IMG/VR virus record: IMGVR_UViG_3300021067_000009
Span: 1 to 47,578 of that record
Origin: a virus
DNA length: 47,578 bases
Reading direction: 5' to 3' (one strand)
Under the pieces are notes generated by a model that was not told the origin of the DNA, did not search any database, and saw only the letters and a list, made by a program, of their open reading frames with translations. The position numbers were made by a program, and so were the translations under genes. How positions within the stretch are numbered: position 1 is the first letter of the stretch; every line of letters begins with the position of its first letter. This document shows positions 4,881-33,842 of the stretch, piece by piece.

Positions 4881-5627
4881 TTACACAGTGTTGCCTGCCA
4901 CGCGCATCGTCACCGAGGTGTCGGCCGCGGCGTCCCCGGCTGCCAGGGTCAACTCGAGCCACACCGCTTGCGCCGCCCCCGCGGTGAGGTTCTGGGAGTT
5001 GGCGACGTTCTTCGCGTTCGAGTTGAAGGTGAGCGCGGGAGCGGTGAGGCGGTTGGCGACCGTGGTGGATCCATTGAGCGCCGCTTCCACGGCAAAGGCG
5101 AGCTTGCCGGAGGGGTCGGCGTTCTCCGATATCACCGCACTCGTGAGGGAGAGCGTGCCGTGGTTGTTCTTGAAAAAGATCTTTTCGTAGAACTTGCGCT
5201 CCGAGCCCCCAGCCGCGTCGGCTGAGGCGTTGTAGAAGGGGCGGCGGATCTCGAGCAGCCCCGGCTCAAAGGCCATGATGGTTACGTTGTCACTCGCCTT
5301 GCGCAGCGTCACGGTGCCTTCGGCCGCGCCATCGAGGATCGCTTTCAAGATGCGCTCGAAGCTGGTGGCAAAGTTCACCTGCGTGGTGCCGTTCAGGGTC
5401 TGGGTCTCGCTCACGAGCTCGCCGGCCGCATTACGCCCATAAACAGTCAGGTCTTGCGTGGTGTCGTCGGCGTCGGAAGAGACCACTTCAAGGGTGTCGG
5501 TGGCCGAGATATCGGTGAACACGTAGCGGCAGGTCGTGTCGATCGCGCCGCCCGGGTCGGCCGTGGTGTTGTCATTGACACGGGTGGCCGCGCCGTACGC
5601 CACGATATCGGATGCTGCAACAGGCAT
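4881..5627 (-). CDS. Putative virion structural protein, paralog of 2496-3278
   Basis: A 248-residue protein starting MPVAASDIVAYGAATRVNDN. A sheet-rich middle (TDTLEVVSSDADDTTQDLTV, YGRNAAGELVSETQTLNGTT) is followed by a C-terminal domain similar to that of the 260-residue protein two genes downstream. The start codon lies inside a perfect 8-bp inverted repeat shared with the upstream 18-bp element at 5649-5666, so translation initiation may be controlled by RNA structure. Its position after the capsid, connector and lysis genes suggests a tail or particle-surface protein. Confidence 0.6.
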   Translation of the reverse strand: MPVAASDIVAYGAATRVNDNTTADPGGAIDTTCRYVFTDISATDTLEVVSSDADDTTQDLTVYGRNAAGELVSETQTLNGTTQVNFATSFERILKAILDGAAEGTVTLRKASDNVTIMAFEPGLLEIRRPFYNASADAAGGSERKFYEKIFFKNNHGTLSLTSAVISENADPSGKLAFAVEAALNGSTTVANRLTAPALTFNSNAKNVANSQNLTAGAAQAVWLELTLAAGDAAADTSVTMRVAGNTV

Positions 5628-5666
5628 GAGTAGATCCCCTTAAGAGTTCGGTCACTCATGCGACCC
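5624..5666 (-). promoter_or_regulatory. Start-codon hairpin containing the 18-bp leader element (copy 2)
   Basis: On the plus strand GCATGAGT (5624-5631) is the exact inverse of ACTCATGC (5654-5661). In the mRNA the AUG of the 4881-5627 gene is inside the stem, and the purine-rich AAGGGGA ribosome-binding segment is in the loop. The upstream arm is part of CGGTCACTCATGCGACCC (5649-5666), which recurs exactly at 15391-15408 before the capsid gene. Confidence 0.55.
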
Positions 5667-14230: not shown

Positions 14231-14254
14231 GAAACCGGCGCCTTAGGGCGCCGG
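14231..14254 (-). terminator. Hairpin with the capsid stop codon in its loop
   Basis: CCGGCGCC (14235-14242) is the exact inverse of GGCGCCGG (14247-14254), with a 4-nt loop. On the minus strand the loop contains the TAA stop of the capsid gene, and the stem is followed by TTTC. It probably acts as a weak terminator or a 3' stability element that gives more capsid than downstream message. Confidence 0.55.
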
Positions 14255-15364
14255 GTTCGCTGCAGCAGTATCGACAGCCATCACGCCAAAGTCTTTGGCA
14301 GTGCCGTCGATGGTGAACCGGGACTTTTTGATCCCGAAGATCGTGGAGCTCGTGATGACAGCCTGGTTGCCGTTGTCGCGAGATTCCTCGTGCCAGTCAA
14401 AGCGCAGGCCCGTGCCGGGGGAGCCGAACGCACACACCGCGGCCTGTTGACCGAGGTAGAGCGCGCGGGCCGCGGCGACGTTGGCTCCCGCACCGTAGTC
14501 GGTGAAGCGCAGCACGCTCTTGTGCGAGTGCAGCACAACGTTATTGTGCATGCCCAGGCCGCCCTTGAAGATCGGGCTGTTGCGCCCCTCGGCGGTGGCG
14601 GCTGCCTTCTGGATCTCGAGCCAGTTGGAAGCGCCAGAGCCGGTGCGCAGGTCGTACTCCTGCCAGGGGCTCATGAGCAGCACATAGTGCTCCTCACCAT
14701 CGATCATGACGGGTTGGATCTGCGGGGTGCCCTGCGTGCCACCGCCCATCATCACCGCGCGGGTCTTTGCCTTGTCGATGACCGTCGTATCCATGATGTC
14801 GGCCGAATCGACGTTGGCTTTGGCCGTCGCGTTGCCGCCGTAGAGCAAGTGCTCGGCATCGGGCGCGGCAAAGGCATTGTTGGCAAAGCCCGTGTAGCTG
14901 GTCGGGAAGATGTACTCGGAGTTGGTTCCGCGTGCACCCGAGAGGTACATGAAGAACAGCTCATCGAACACCCGGCCCCACCACTCGCTCTGGCGCTTGC
15001 GCGCGAGCTTGCGCAGGTCATGGATGGTGCGCTTGCGGGTCATGCGACCGCCGGTGTTCACGCCACCGCGCATCTGATCGATGTACACCTGGTCGGTGTA
15101 GAACTTGAGATCTTCCTCGGTGCCTTCCTGCACAGCATCGCCTTCGATGGGCTGCTGGCGAAGCTGCATGTTCAGATCGTACGTGATCTGCTCACCGGCA
15201 TCGTTCTCCAGCTGCGGCAGCATCTGGATCGGCATGCCAGATTCAGGGCCCTTGCCCATGAACTTTTTCGAGAAGTAGGAAACTCGGGCCGAATCGACCG
15301 CGAGGAACGCGCTGTAGCGCTTTACCGCCTTCGCGTCATTAAGACCAATTATGGTCCGTGCCAT
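14243..15364 (-). CDS. Major capsid protein, N4-gp56 family
   Basis: A 373-residue protein; the ATG at 15364 follows GGGGGAG by about 9 nt. The sequence closely matches the N4-gp56 major capsid family: MARTIIGLNDAKAVKRYS, YFSKKFMGKGPESGMPIQML, EEDLKFYTDQVYIDQMRGGV, MTRKRTIHDLRKLARKRQSE, VFDELFFMYLSGARGTN, SYTGFANNAFAAPDAEHL, MGGGTQGTPQIQPVMIDGEE and GMHNNVVLHSHKSVLRFTDY. Members form the HK97-fold icosahedral shell. Both flanking regions are structured: a hairpin around the ribosome-binding site upstream and a stop-codon hairpin downstream, consistent with tuned high expression. Confidence 0.95.
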   Translation of the reverse strand: MARTIIGLNDAKAVKRYSAFLAVDSARVSYFSKKFMGKGPESGMPIQMLPQLENDAGEQITYDLNMQLRQQPIEGDAVQEGTEEDLKFYTDQVYIDQMRGGVNTGGRMTRKRTIHDLRKLARKRQSEWWGRVFDELFFMYLSGARGTNSEYIFPTSYTGFANNAFAAPDAEHLLYGGNATAKANVDSADIMDTTVIDKAKTRAVMMGGGTQGTPQIQPVMIDGEEHYVLLMSPWQEYDLRTGSGASNWLEIQKAAATAEGRNSPIFKGGLGMHNNVVLHSHKSVLRFTDYGAGANVAAARALYLGQQAAVCAFGSPGTGLRFDWHEESRDNGNQAVITSSTIFGIKKSRFTIDGTAKDFGVMAVDTAAANPAP

Positions 15365-15365
15365 G

Positions 15366-15408
15366 TGAGTGACTCCCCCTTGTGGGATGACGGTCACTCA
15401 TGCGACCC
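15366..15408 (-). promoter_or_regulatory. Leader hairpin with the 18-bp element (copy 1) upstream of the capsid gene
   Basis: TGAGTGAC (15366-15373) is the exact inverse of GTCACTCA (15393-15400). In the mRNA the stem ends just before the AUG, and the GGGGGAG ribosome-binding site is in the loop next to the stem. The distal arm is inside CGGTCACTCATGCGACCC (15391-15408), identical to 5649-5666. Confidence 0.6.
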
Positions 15409-15436: not shown

Positions 15437-15631
15437 TCACGCCTTTACAGGGTGTGCTTTTACGCTAACGCTGGATTCCACGTCTACGCCCACAGAGGGG
15501 TCCGCGACTACCTCTATGCGGGCCATACGCCCCTTTTTCTCTCGAAGTGTGAAGCGGATCGCAGGCAGCCCGTGCGCGGAGAGGTCCACGCGCACGGTTT
15601 GCCCCGTCCTCACATTGAGGTGCAGCGCCAT
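15437..15631 (-). CDS. Small protein between scaffold and capsid, possibly CsrA-like
   Basis: A 64-residue protein whose start is TAATG-coupled to the scaffold stop. The pattern L-x-L-x-x-R-x-G-x-x-V-x-V ... I-x-F-T-L ... G-x-x-A-R-I-x-V-x-A, with VGV at the end, loosely follows the strand layout of CsrA (compare the true CsrA at 39795). It lacks the HREEI helix start and key Arg positions, so RNA binding is doubtful. It could equally be a minor head protein. Confidence 0.45.
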   Translation of the reverse strand: MALHLNVRTGQTVRVDLSAHGLPAIRFTLREKKGRMARIEVVADPSVGVDVESSVSVKAHPVKA

Positions 15632-16767
15632 TAACTACCCCGGCGCGAGAGGGAGGCCTCGTATCGCGCGTACTGCTTGGGGTTTAAGGACGCCACTGCC
15701 TCTTCGTAGTCGTCTCCCGTGAGCTTATCGATGTGCGCGAACTCATCCGTTCCCGCATCGGTGCTACCGGCAGCCGGAACATCCCCGAGGTTCTTCGGCA
15801 GTGCATCGCGCGCGGCCGCGGCGTTATCCGCTGCCCTGCGCACGCGCTCTGCGGTGGTCGATGTTTTGGTCTTGCCGCCTTTGCCGGCAGCCGCCGCACC
15901 TGCTGCAGCCGCGGCAGGCTGAGCGGTGGGGAGCCCAAGCTCGGTGAGCACATTGTGACGCGCGGTGGCGAGCAAATATGAGTAGCTTGCGCCCTGATAT
16001 TTGGGATTCGCGTAGAGCTGGTGCAGGGCTGCGTTGAGCGCTGCGCTGCCCGCTTTCGATCGAAAACGCGCGTTTTCCTCATCCTTCAAAAAGTCACTCA
16101 CCGCACCTTGCCAGCGCTGCGCCTTGGCCTGTTTGTTCAGGCTCTCAACCTGCGCGTGCTCCTCAGCGATGCTCTCGAGCTCACTGCGCTGATTGACAAT
16201 GGCGCGCTCACGCTCACGGAAGGCCTTGAAGTTGATGTTGCCCGCGTCGTACTCGGCCTCGAGCGCGGTCAGATCCGCATCAAGTTTGGTCAGCTGCTCT
16301 TTGTGGTCCGCCGGCAGCTCACGCCTGGGCGTGAATCCTGCTACCTCATCCTCAAGCGGGATCTCTTCGGATTCCGTTGCGGTCGTGGCTGCTGCGGCAT
16401 CGGCGGTTGTGGCCGTGGCGACGCTGGCGGCGGCAGCTGCATCTGCCCCGGCGGCAGAGTTCGAGGCGGCGGCTGCTCCAGCGGCCTCGTCAGTGCCTGA
16501 TGCGGCCTCGTCGCCGCCAGCGTCGTCATCGTCCCCCTCATCCTCATCGTCGTCTACGTCCCCCGTCTCATCTTCGGCATTTGCCGGTGGATCCACCGTA
16601 GGATCTTTCCCGGCGGTGCCCTCCGTAGCGGCTGCCGTTGCTTCCCCCCCTCCTGTTTTGCCGGTACCCCCGTCGGCAGCGTCCGCGCCGTCCTCGACAT
16701 CCGCGAGGGCTGCGAGCTCTTCGGCCGATAGGGATACGTCATCAAAAGTTTCGACTTTCTTACCCAT
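15631..16767 (-). CDS. Putative capsid scaffold protein
   Basis: A 378-residue protein between portal and capsid. Residues 1-150 are an Ala/Asp/Glu-rich disordered region (TGDVDDDEDEGDDDD, then Ala-rich ADAAAAASVATATTADAAAA). Residues about 155-260 are a charged helical coiled region (ELPADHKEQLTKLDADLTAL, RERERAIVNQRSELESIAEE, HAQVESLNKQAKAQRWQGAV). The C-terminus ends YEEAVASLNPKQYARYEASL followed by SRRGS, a basic helix that could contact the capsid. The acidic N-terminus, helical middle, basic C-terminus and location all fit a scaffold. Confidence 0.75.
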   Translation of the reverse strand: MGKKVETFDDVSLSAEELAALADVEDGADAADGGTGKTGGGEATAAATEGTAGKDPTVDPPANAEDETGDVDDDEDEGDDDDAGGDEAASGTDEAAGAAAASNSAAGADAAAAASVATATTADAAAATTATESEEIPLEDEVAGFTPRRELPADHKEQLTKLDADLTALEAEYDAGNINFKAFRERERAIVNQRSELESIAEEHAQVESLNKQAKAQRWQGAVSDFLKDEENARFRSKAGSAALNAALHQLYANPKYQGASYSYLLATARHNVLTELGLPTAQPAAAAAGAAAAGKGGKTKTSTTAERVRRAADNAAAARDALPKNLGDVPAAGSTDAGTDEFAHIDKLTGDDYEEAVASLNPKQYARYEASLSRRGS

Positions 16768-16802
16768 GAAACCTTCACTCCTGCGAAGCGAATTGAAAAA
16801 AC

Positions 16803-24303: not shown

Positions 24304-24736
24304 GAATCAAGTCTTTCAAAGAACTCCGCAGCCCACACACAGCGCTTGGGGTCATGTGGTGCATGCGACGGAGCTCGCGCCTGGTGTGTGGCAGGTAGAC
24401 ACCGAAGGGCACGGGGGCATCATCCTCTCGCCCGAGCGGATCGCCGCGCTGCCTGAGTGGGCCAAGAGGCAAACGCCATGGTCGCGGGTTGCGGGCCAGT
24501 ATGAGGAGGATTGTGATTGGGTCATTCCCACGCTCGCCTTCCCTGAGGTGTTAGAAGCCAAGCAAGAGCGCCATAACAGATTTGCGCGCGAGAATGGCAT
24601 CACTTCCATCTTGAGCATCAAGAACTACGCGGTGAAGGTGCTCAACGAACACCATCACAGCGCATATGCAGCGCTCATGCGCGACGATGAGCATCTGCGC
24701 GCCCTTGGCCTTGGTACGGTGAGCATCGCTGTCTAA
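24296..24736 (+). CDS. DUF7007-like protein
   Basis: A 146-residue protein. The sequence (SAWGHVVHATELAPGVWQVD, TEGHGGIILSPERIAALPEW, GQYEEDCDWVIPTLAFPEVL) matches the pattern I recall for DUF7007 proteins of phages and plasmids: 'W-G-x-x ... G-I ... S-x-x-H-G-G-x-x-L-S ... +P ... x-E-E-D-C ... P x L x F P'. The C-terminus is helical (EHHHSAYAALMRDDEHLRAL). Molecular function is unknown. It has an excellent ribosome-binding site. Confidence 0.6.
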   Translation: MSKNQVFQRTPQPTHSAWGHVVHATELAPGVWQVDTEGHGGIILSPERIAALPEWAKRQTPWSRVAGQYEEDCDWVIPTLAFPEVLEAKQERHNRFARENGITSILSIKNYAVKVLNEHHHSAYAALMRDDEHLRALGLGTVSIAV

Positions 24737-32829: not shown

Positions 32830-33842
32830 GTCCTAGAAAAACCGCAGCCTCAGCGGCTACTGAGGCGCCTGCCGTTGTGCAAGCAGCCGTCCAGGCCGCT
32901 ATAGAGCAAGAAGTCGATCGCACAAAGTTCCTGGGAGGCTCCGATATCGGCGCCGTCTTAGGGTTCCAGCCCTTCGGGCGCACGCTGGTCGATGTGTGGG
33001 CCGACAAAACCACCCCGCGCACAGAGGACACCGCAAACCGCAAGTCCAAACGCCGTGGACACCGCTGGGAAAGCGTGGTGGCTGAAATGTTGGTTGAGAG
33101 CCTGCACGAGGAAGGCCATTCCGTGGAGATCGTTGCCGCCAATCAGCGCTACCAAGATCCCGAGATTCCTTACTTTGCTTGCGAGATTGATTTTGAGATC
33201 AAGCTCAATGGCGAGGAAGACATCACCAATGTGGAGCTCAAGACCGTTCACCCCTTCAAGGCCAAGGAATGGGGCGAGTCGGGCGATGCGTCCAGGGTGC
33301 CGCCCTATTACGAGGCTCAAGGCATGTGGGGATTAGGTATCACGCGGCGCCGGCGCACGATCATCGCCGCGCTCTTTGGCGCCGATGAGCTGCGCCCCTT
33401 CCTGCAGGTTGCCGAGCAGGATGTGATTTCGGCCATGCGCCAGGTCGGCCAAGAGTTCTGGGAGCAGCATGTGCTGCTGAACGTGCCGCCCGAGCCCATC
33501 AACTATGAGGATCTAAAGAAAATCTACAAAGGGATCGAGGGCACCGTGCTCGATGCCGATGATGAGCTTACCGAAATGCTGCTGAAGCTTCGGGAAGTGT
33601 CCTCGCAGATCGATGTGGCTAACCGTGCCTGGGACCTCTTGCAGTATCAGATTGCAAAGCGCATGGGCGTGAATGAGGTCGTCATGGTGCGCGGCAAAAA
33701 GGCGCTCACGTGGAAGAGTCAGCCCTGGCAGACCATCGACCAAGAGCTGCTCAAGAAAGAGCACAAGGAAGCCTACAAGGCCTGCTTGCGCAAGGGCGAG
33801 GCGCGCCAGTTCCGTTTATCTAACTTTGCTTGGGAGCTTTAA
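32826..33842 (+). CDS. YqaJ-family viral recombinase (lambda-type exonuclease)
   Basis: A 338-residue protein with a GTG start. Motifs: FLGGSDIGAVLGFQPFGRTL, RGHRWESVVAEMLVESL (Glu82), ACEIDFEI (Asp122) and VELKTVHPFKAKEWG (Glu137, Lys139), then PPYYEAQGMWGLGITRRRRT. These are the D...ExK core and the RWE and YEAQ-type motifs of the YqaJ/lambda exonuclease fold. It would resect double-strand ends to give 3' overhangs for the RecT protein encoded next. The long C-terminal helical part (YKGIEGTVLDADDELTEMLL) is usual for the family. Confidence 0.9.
   Translation: MSPRKTAASAATEAPAVVQAAVQAAIEQEVDRTKFLGGSDIGAVLGFQPFGRTLVDVWADKTTPRTEDTANRKSKRRGHRWESVVAEMLVESLHEEGHSVEIVAANQRYQDPEIPYFACEIDFEIKLNGEEDITNVELKTVHPFKAKEWGESGDASRVPPYYEAQGMWGLGITRRRRTIIAALFGADELRPFLQVAEQDVISAMRQVGQEFWEQHVLLNVPPEPINYEDLKKIYKGIEGTVLDADDELTEMLLKLREVSSQIDVANRAWDLLQYQIAKRMGVNEVVMVRGKKALTWKSQPWQTIDQELLKKEHKEAYKACLRKGEARQFRLSNFAWEL

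Follow-up and report, generated by a model that had tools for sequence, protein, structure and literature searches.

An 18-nt element that occurs twice in the window (the whole 47,578-nucleotide stretch of viral DNA analyzed here) is probably the cognate RNA site of a CsrA homologue encoded by the phage. Binding of this protein would activate translation of the major capsid gene and, at a third copy of the element, repress the protein's own operon. The conserved, covarying leader RNA structure that underlies this reading is well supported, and the evidence for CsrA as its putative binder is strong but circumstantial; we infer both activation as the direction of control at the capsid gene, which is the weakest step, and repression at the third copy.

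The element, CGGTCACTCATGCGACCC, is found exactly at positions 5649-5666 and 15391-15408, as the original prediction had it, with no further exact copy in the 47.6-kb virus record. This repetition lies far beyond chance, as shuffled sequences contained on average 0.07 matches at ≤3 mismatches and none of 100 shuffles reached two. Both copies and the genes downstream of them lie on the minus strand, and the RNA form of the element reads GGGTCGCATGAGTGACCG. Its end is separated by 21 nt from the ATG (5627) of a 248-aa gene (4881-5627) and by 26 nt from the ATG at 15364, the true start of the major capsid protein gene (14243-15364; phrog_334, E = 2e-111; PF13252, E = 4e-63), which is near a P22-like portal gene. 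Both copies had been placed before structural genes; this stands for the capsid gene, whereas for the product of 4881-5627, which weakly matches phrog_13135/phrog_8198 (PHROGs without assigned function), "structural" was deduced from position. At each copy, the element pairs with a different downstream arm through eight perfect pairs: GCATGAGT (5654-5661) with ACTCATGC (5624-5631, minus strand), where the AUG does lie inside the paired arm, and TGAGTGAC (15393-15400) with GTCACTCA (15366-15373, minus strand), which adjoins the Shine-Dalgarno (SD) sequence GGGGGAG (15373-15379). The pairing of both arms despite their different sequences was correctly taken to fit a conserved structure, but this account was incomplete, because the arm pairing competes with a hairpin formed by the element on itself (GGTC-GCATGAGT-GACC). 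At the capsid copy this hairpin, P1, consists of a GGTC/GACC stem extended by G-U and C-G pairs and an AUGA tetraloop; it scores 26.7 bits (E = 6e-5) with our covariance model, and the second copy scores 24.3 bits. Besides the hairpin itself, the earlier reading had overlooked a third, divergent copy at 16773-16788 and a CsrA-like open reading frame (ORF) beside the capsid copy. The search for further copies that it had called for returned this third copy. The exact 18-mer also occurs in three IMG/VR contigs. A fourth hairpin-like match (24665-24688, minus strand, 18.7 bits) in an upstream gene region was left out as a further site, there being no clear start codon nearby.

A Megablast search with the structural region gave no match among known phages, and relatives were therefore sought by protein. 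The capsid protein search yielded 80 loci; the cultured relatives are Bcep22-like podoviruses and others, and the leader comparison took in 93 relatives. Of these 93, 81 have a hairpin 28 to 60 nt before the major capsid gene, with GCANGAGY or GCANGANGY set in a variable stem. Its strict form (8-nt core and at least three stem pairs) occurs in 59 leaders, against 0.15 expected from shuffles; 12 CsrA-positive records lack this form, several of them showing variants by eye. In the three IMG/VR contigs, the exact 18-mer precedes the same capsid gene and also a second gene past the tail-spike gene. The P1 core is near-invariant on the mRNA strand (GC-A-N-G-A-(N)-G-Y) and is set in a covarying stem. 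Across 39 distinct hairpins, there is almost no change in the inner C-G, G-U/C, and C-G pairs or in the A-N-G-A loop, while compensated changes occur in the outer stem (covariation score of 0.349, versus 0.141 ± 0.027 in shuffled controls), with 46 double-change cells compared to 24 in the shuffled stems and 83% of stem cells paired in the native register versus 20 to 52% when slid. All 63 covariance model hits in 39 loci fall on the coding strand. An Rfam search gave no match to the window at the gathering score, and four loci gave chance-level matches alone. Six capsid leaders (L035, L037, L058, L061, L064, and L076) carry a second hairpin of the same kind further upstream, between about −50 and −72, an arrangement that would suit a CsrA dimer with its two RNA-binding faces. 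In several of the cultured relatives (L098 to L107), there are promoter-like TTGnnn-17-GATAAT boxes whose −10 precedes the loop by about 21 nt; a capsid transcript from these would begin close to the hairpin's 5′ edge. A sigma-70-type promoter core was rejected, as −35/−10 pairs scored upstream of 57 hairpins were little above shuffles, with none inside the element.

In the hairpin, the loop together with the 3′ strand is complementary to the SD/start region. In 57 nonredundant capsid leaders, the duplex between loop and arm averaged −10.8 kcal/mol in native combinations versus −8.0 kcal/mol in permuted ones (0 of 10,000 permutations), and native pairing differed from swapped pairing with a z score of −9.6. 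The differing loops GAGT, GGAAGT, GACGT, and GGATGT are matched by arms such as GCACTC, GCACTTC, CACGTC, and GCACATCC. The effect was repeated at 22 noncapsid hairpins, some of which are mutually related sites (2 of 10,000 permutations). Capsid leaders are thus predicted to have two folds, P1 and the start-site pairing P2, which exclude each other because they share bases and whose arms covary with the loop. According to the energy model, forcing P1 costs on average 6.4 kcal/mol in native leaders and 2.7 kcal/mol in swapped chimeras; with P1 locked, the predicted accessibility of the start region rises from 0.25 to 0.49, with an increase in 48 of the 57 leaders and a decrease in 2.

Immediately before the capsid gene lies a 64-aa ORF (15437-15631, minus strand) whose start codon overlaps the stop codon of the gene ahead of it (TAATG); it most likely encodes a divergent CsrA homologue, as judged from sequence profiles and a structural model. 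The gene at this position is annotated as CsrA-like in cultured relatives, and in nearly all of the 93 loci an iterative profile detected an ORF of this kind ahead of the capsid gene. The family profile (A1) matched solved CsrA structures with an E value of 8.8e-8; within the aligned family, 30 of 51 members matched PF02599 and 49 of 51 matched phrog_8397, which by sequence assigns the family to CsrA (PF02599). Queried alone, the window protein had no match in Pfam and a weak one to phrog_8397 (CsrA-like; E = 0.0095); the iterated HMM gave an E value of 3e-19. Its AF2 model (pLDDT of 86.5) had CsrA, RsmA, or RsmE as all of its best 15 Foldseek matches in the PDB, the best at an rmsd of 1.0 Å over 51 columns; the E values are weak, the chain being so short, and the model is consistent with a CsrA fold. 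In the sequence alignment, an Arg at the position of Escherichia coli R44, a residue of the β1/β5 surface through which the CsrA dimer binds RNA, is not evident in the window protein and is not conserved across the family. Bcep22-like phages (DC1, BcepIL02, JC1, Parlo, and Pavtok) encode members of the same phrog_8397 family at the same precapsid position, and the CsrA-like protein of F116 belongs to this gene family too. A single CsrA peptide has been detected in purified JC1 virions (PMC9144972); if this is genuine, CsrA might be delivered along with the DNA. F116-type phages (F116, L130; LKA5, L131) have two CsrA-family genes, located in F116 at 16466-16600 and 33369-33521; the second (gene 47, annotated as unknown) lies among virion genes, with hairpins after it.

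The hairpin and csrA occur together. None of eight records without detectable CsrA has the capsid-leader hairpin (four bacterial MAG contigs, whose capsids are about 60% identical to that of the window, and the phages KLEP18-1, K249, phiR18, and RHph_Y1_10), and the hairpin or a variant is present in ten MAG contigs with CsrA; a Fisher test on the csrA/hairpin counts gave a P value of 3e-7, without correction for phylogeny. Atu_ph08, PBC5, and POI1126 carry csrA elsewhere in the genome instead of directly before the capsid gene and keep the hairpin. In F116, the csrA-like gene 47 follows the capsid gene, strong hairpin hits lie directly before genes 48 and 49, and the capsid leader has no hairpin; the hairpin therefore goes with csrA. 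Microcystis phage Mwe-JY25 has the hairpin and a doubtful CsrA candidate. Burkholderia cenocepacia and S. meliloti have no chromosomal csrA (PMC7366521), and phages of both carry csrA as well as the hairpin; host CsrA therefore cannot be the binder there.

The loop itself resembles known CsrA sites, for which the SELEX consensus RUACARGGAUGU and an ANGGAN hairpin loop have been described (PMC7652899). It matches the CsrA consensus CANGGANG with one G missing, and 9-nt phage forms such as GCAGGATGT are one base off CARGGAUGU. Like CsrA/RsmE sites, it is closed by C-G, starts with A-N-G, and ends with A before (N)G(U); unlike their ANGGAN hexaloop, it is an ANGA(N) tetra- or pentaloop that often lacks the second G. 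The canonical arrangement, GGA within an ANGGAN hairpin loop, was thus not found, GGA being present in only part of the phage copies. Taken with the covarying stem, the invariant loop, the covarying start-site arm, and the occurrence restricted to the sense strand, the co-occurrence with phage CsrA favors a protein-binding RNA operator, one of the two functions initially proposed.

With a CsrA-like loop in a leader where P1 excludes a start-blocking P2, activation by phage CsrA is the simplest model. In the free capsid leader, the loop and 3′ strand would pair with the SD/start region, keeping translation low; phage CsrA (15437-15631) would bind the P1 form through the A-N-G-A loop and prevent P2, which would free the ribosome site and allow the capsid to be translated. 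The same switch may turn on the late gene 4881-5627 from the second copy. The scheme would be analogous to that of ymdA, which E. coli CsrA activates by undoing an SD-blocking fold (PMC7492729), in that a CsrA-family protein on a 5′ leader would undo an SD-sequestering structure; it would differ from it in the viral origin of protein and targets, the short ANGA(N) hairpin one G short, and the capsid/late genes controlled. Against CsrA as the binder, many copies have no canonical GGA in the loop and the window's own CsrA-like protein is divergent; against activation, CsrA more often represses than activates (PMC7492729).

The third hairpin, CTTC-GCAGGAGT-GAAG (16773-16788, minus strand, 21.4 bits), lies on the SD of the next gene (ATG 16767). 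This 378-aa gene (15631-16767, minus strand; phrog_8246) is the first of the csrA-containing pair, its stop overlapping the csrA start, and by synteny it occupies the scaffold position between the portal region and the csrA-like gene; its counterpart in phage JC1, gp46, has been called virion associated (PMC9144972). Relatives keep the hairpin as CTTC-GCANGAGT-GAAGGAG, with the SD forming part of the stem. It resembles a site at which the csrA operon would be repressed: overlapping the SD of the csrA-coupled gene, it would let CsrA shut off its own synthesis. Other hairpins precede the gene after the capsid gene and tail genes, and in Atu_ph08 and PBC5 one is found before the endolysin gene, on the opposite strand. 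A link between the second copy and the 248-aa gene family was rejected, homologues of that gene (L007 to L017) having no hairpin; the second copy goes with the syntenic site. In two close relatives (L001, 4944-4988; L004, reverse strand), the second copy is followed, ∼49 nt past the hairpin start, by an ORF of 13 to 14 codons that ends in SMS. Its stop codon overlaps the ATG of a 104-aa gene, and it resembles a leader peptide coupled in translation to that gene; a similar ORF of 15 codons is present in L045.

The same site and the same protein could also act with the opposite sign, a CsrA dimer bridging the hairpin and the GGA of the SD so as to repress the capsid gene until late, as known from classic targets of CsrA. 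Most SDs in the capsid leaders do contain GGAG, and the third hairpin overlaps an SD. Nonetheless, repressing Csr/Rsm sites usually overlap the ribosome site, unlike the capsid hairpins, which sit 28 to 60 nt upstream, and bridging does not account for a loop/arm covariation that makes P2 compete with P1, since P2 alone already blocks the start. We therefore regard bridging as unlikely, even though repression is the commonest CsrA mode (PMC7492729).

Another phage protein might instead bind the hairpin, for instance in an MS2-like autoregulation by the capsid protein, the neighboring csrA being incidental. RNA-phage coat proteins bind hairpins beside start codons, and the element precedes capsid and other structural genes; T4 gp43 and the MS2 coat protein are autogenous repressors that act on such a hairpin at a phage gene. 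The present element is like these operators in being a hairpin near a phage gene's start codon with a phage protein as its putative partner, and unlike them in that those autogenous repressors are unrelated to CsrA; their operators are not known to have a competing start-site arm of the present design. This explanation seems improbable given the F116 hairpin, which follows the csrA gene and is missing from the capsid leader, the ∼60% identical capsids in csrA-less records without the hairpin, and the resemblance of the loop to the CsrA consensus. Still harder to accept is a structure working without protein, with P1 followed by P2 timing or dampening translation in the manner of a thermosensor or through a cotranscriptional delay: most leaders do have two exclusive folds, but the loop bases GCA-GA-G are invariant in 39 otherwise diverse hairpins without being needed for P1 pairing, and the link with csrA would go unexplained. 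Finally, a DNA element, either the late promoter core initially suggested or a regulator binding site, is scarcely credible despite the promoter-like −35/−10 boxes that several cultured phages have immediately before the hairpin, because stem sequences change freely while pairing is conserved, the strand bias is strict, the relation to start codons is fixed, and promoter matches over all relatives barely exceed shuffles (mean of 7.8 versus 7.1).

Phage csrA genes are already known, and the explanations in the papers covered by our literature search invoke alteration of the host (biofilm, CRISPR control, and fitness): they have been read as moron genes (PMC9144972), as putative biofilm repressors (PMC8310193), and as suppressors of host CRISPR (PMC8450108). 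This search, with partial coverage of subscription journals and with Gill 2011 on Bcep22 outside it, found no phage CsrA acting on a capsid leader or on an RNA target of its own. The present finding offers phage csrA a concrete job in the phage's own program, the translational control of the most abundant virion protein, and suggests that CsrA-type translational control switches on shell production in this phage group. More tentatively, a viral CsrA branch with its own loop code (ANGA, not ANGGA) might be a late-gene translational master switch governing a phage-wide regulon, in which bistable leaders turn on capsid, tail, and lysis genes and the csrA operon is shut off, in many proteobacterial hosts, including some without csrA. 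If true, the proposed control would show a CsrA-type switch timing the late genes of a DNA phage, would provide tool building with a new protein-RNA pair whose recognition code is altered, and would make targets predictable in cultured phages such as BcepIL02, PBC5, Atu_ph08, and F116.
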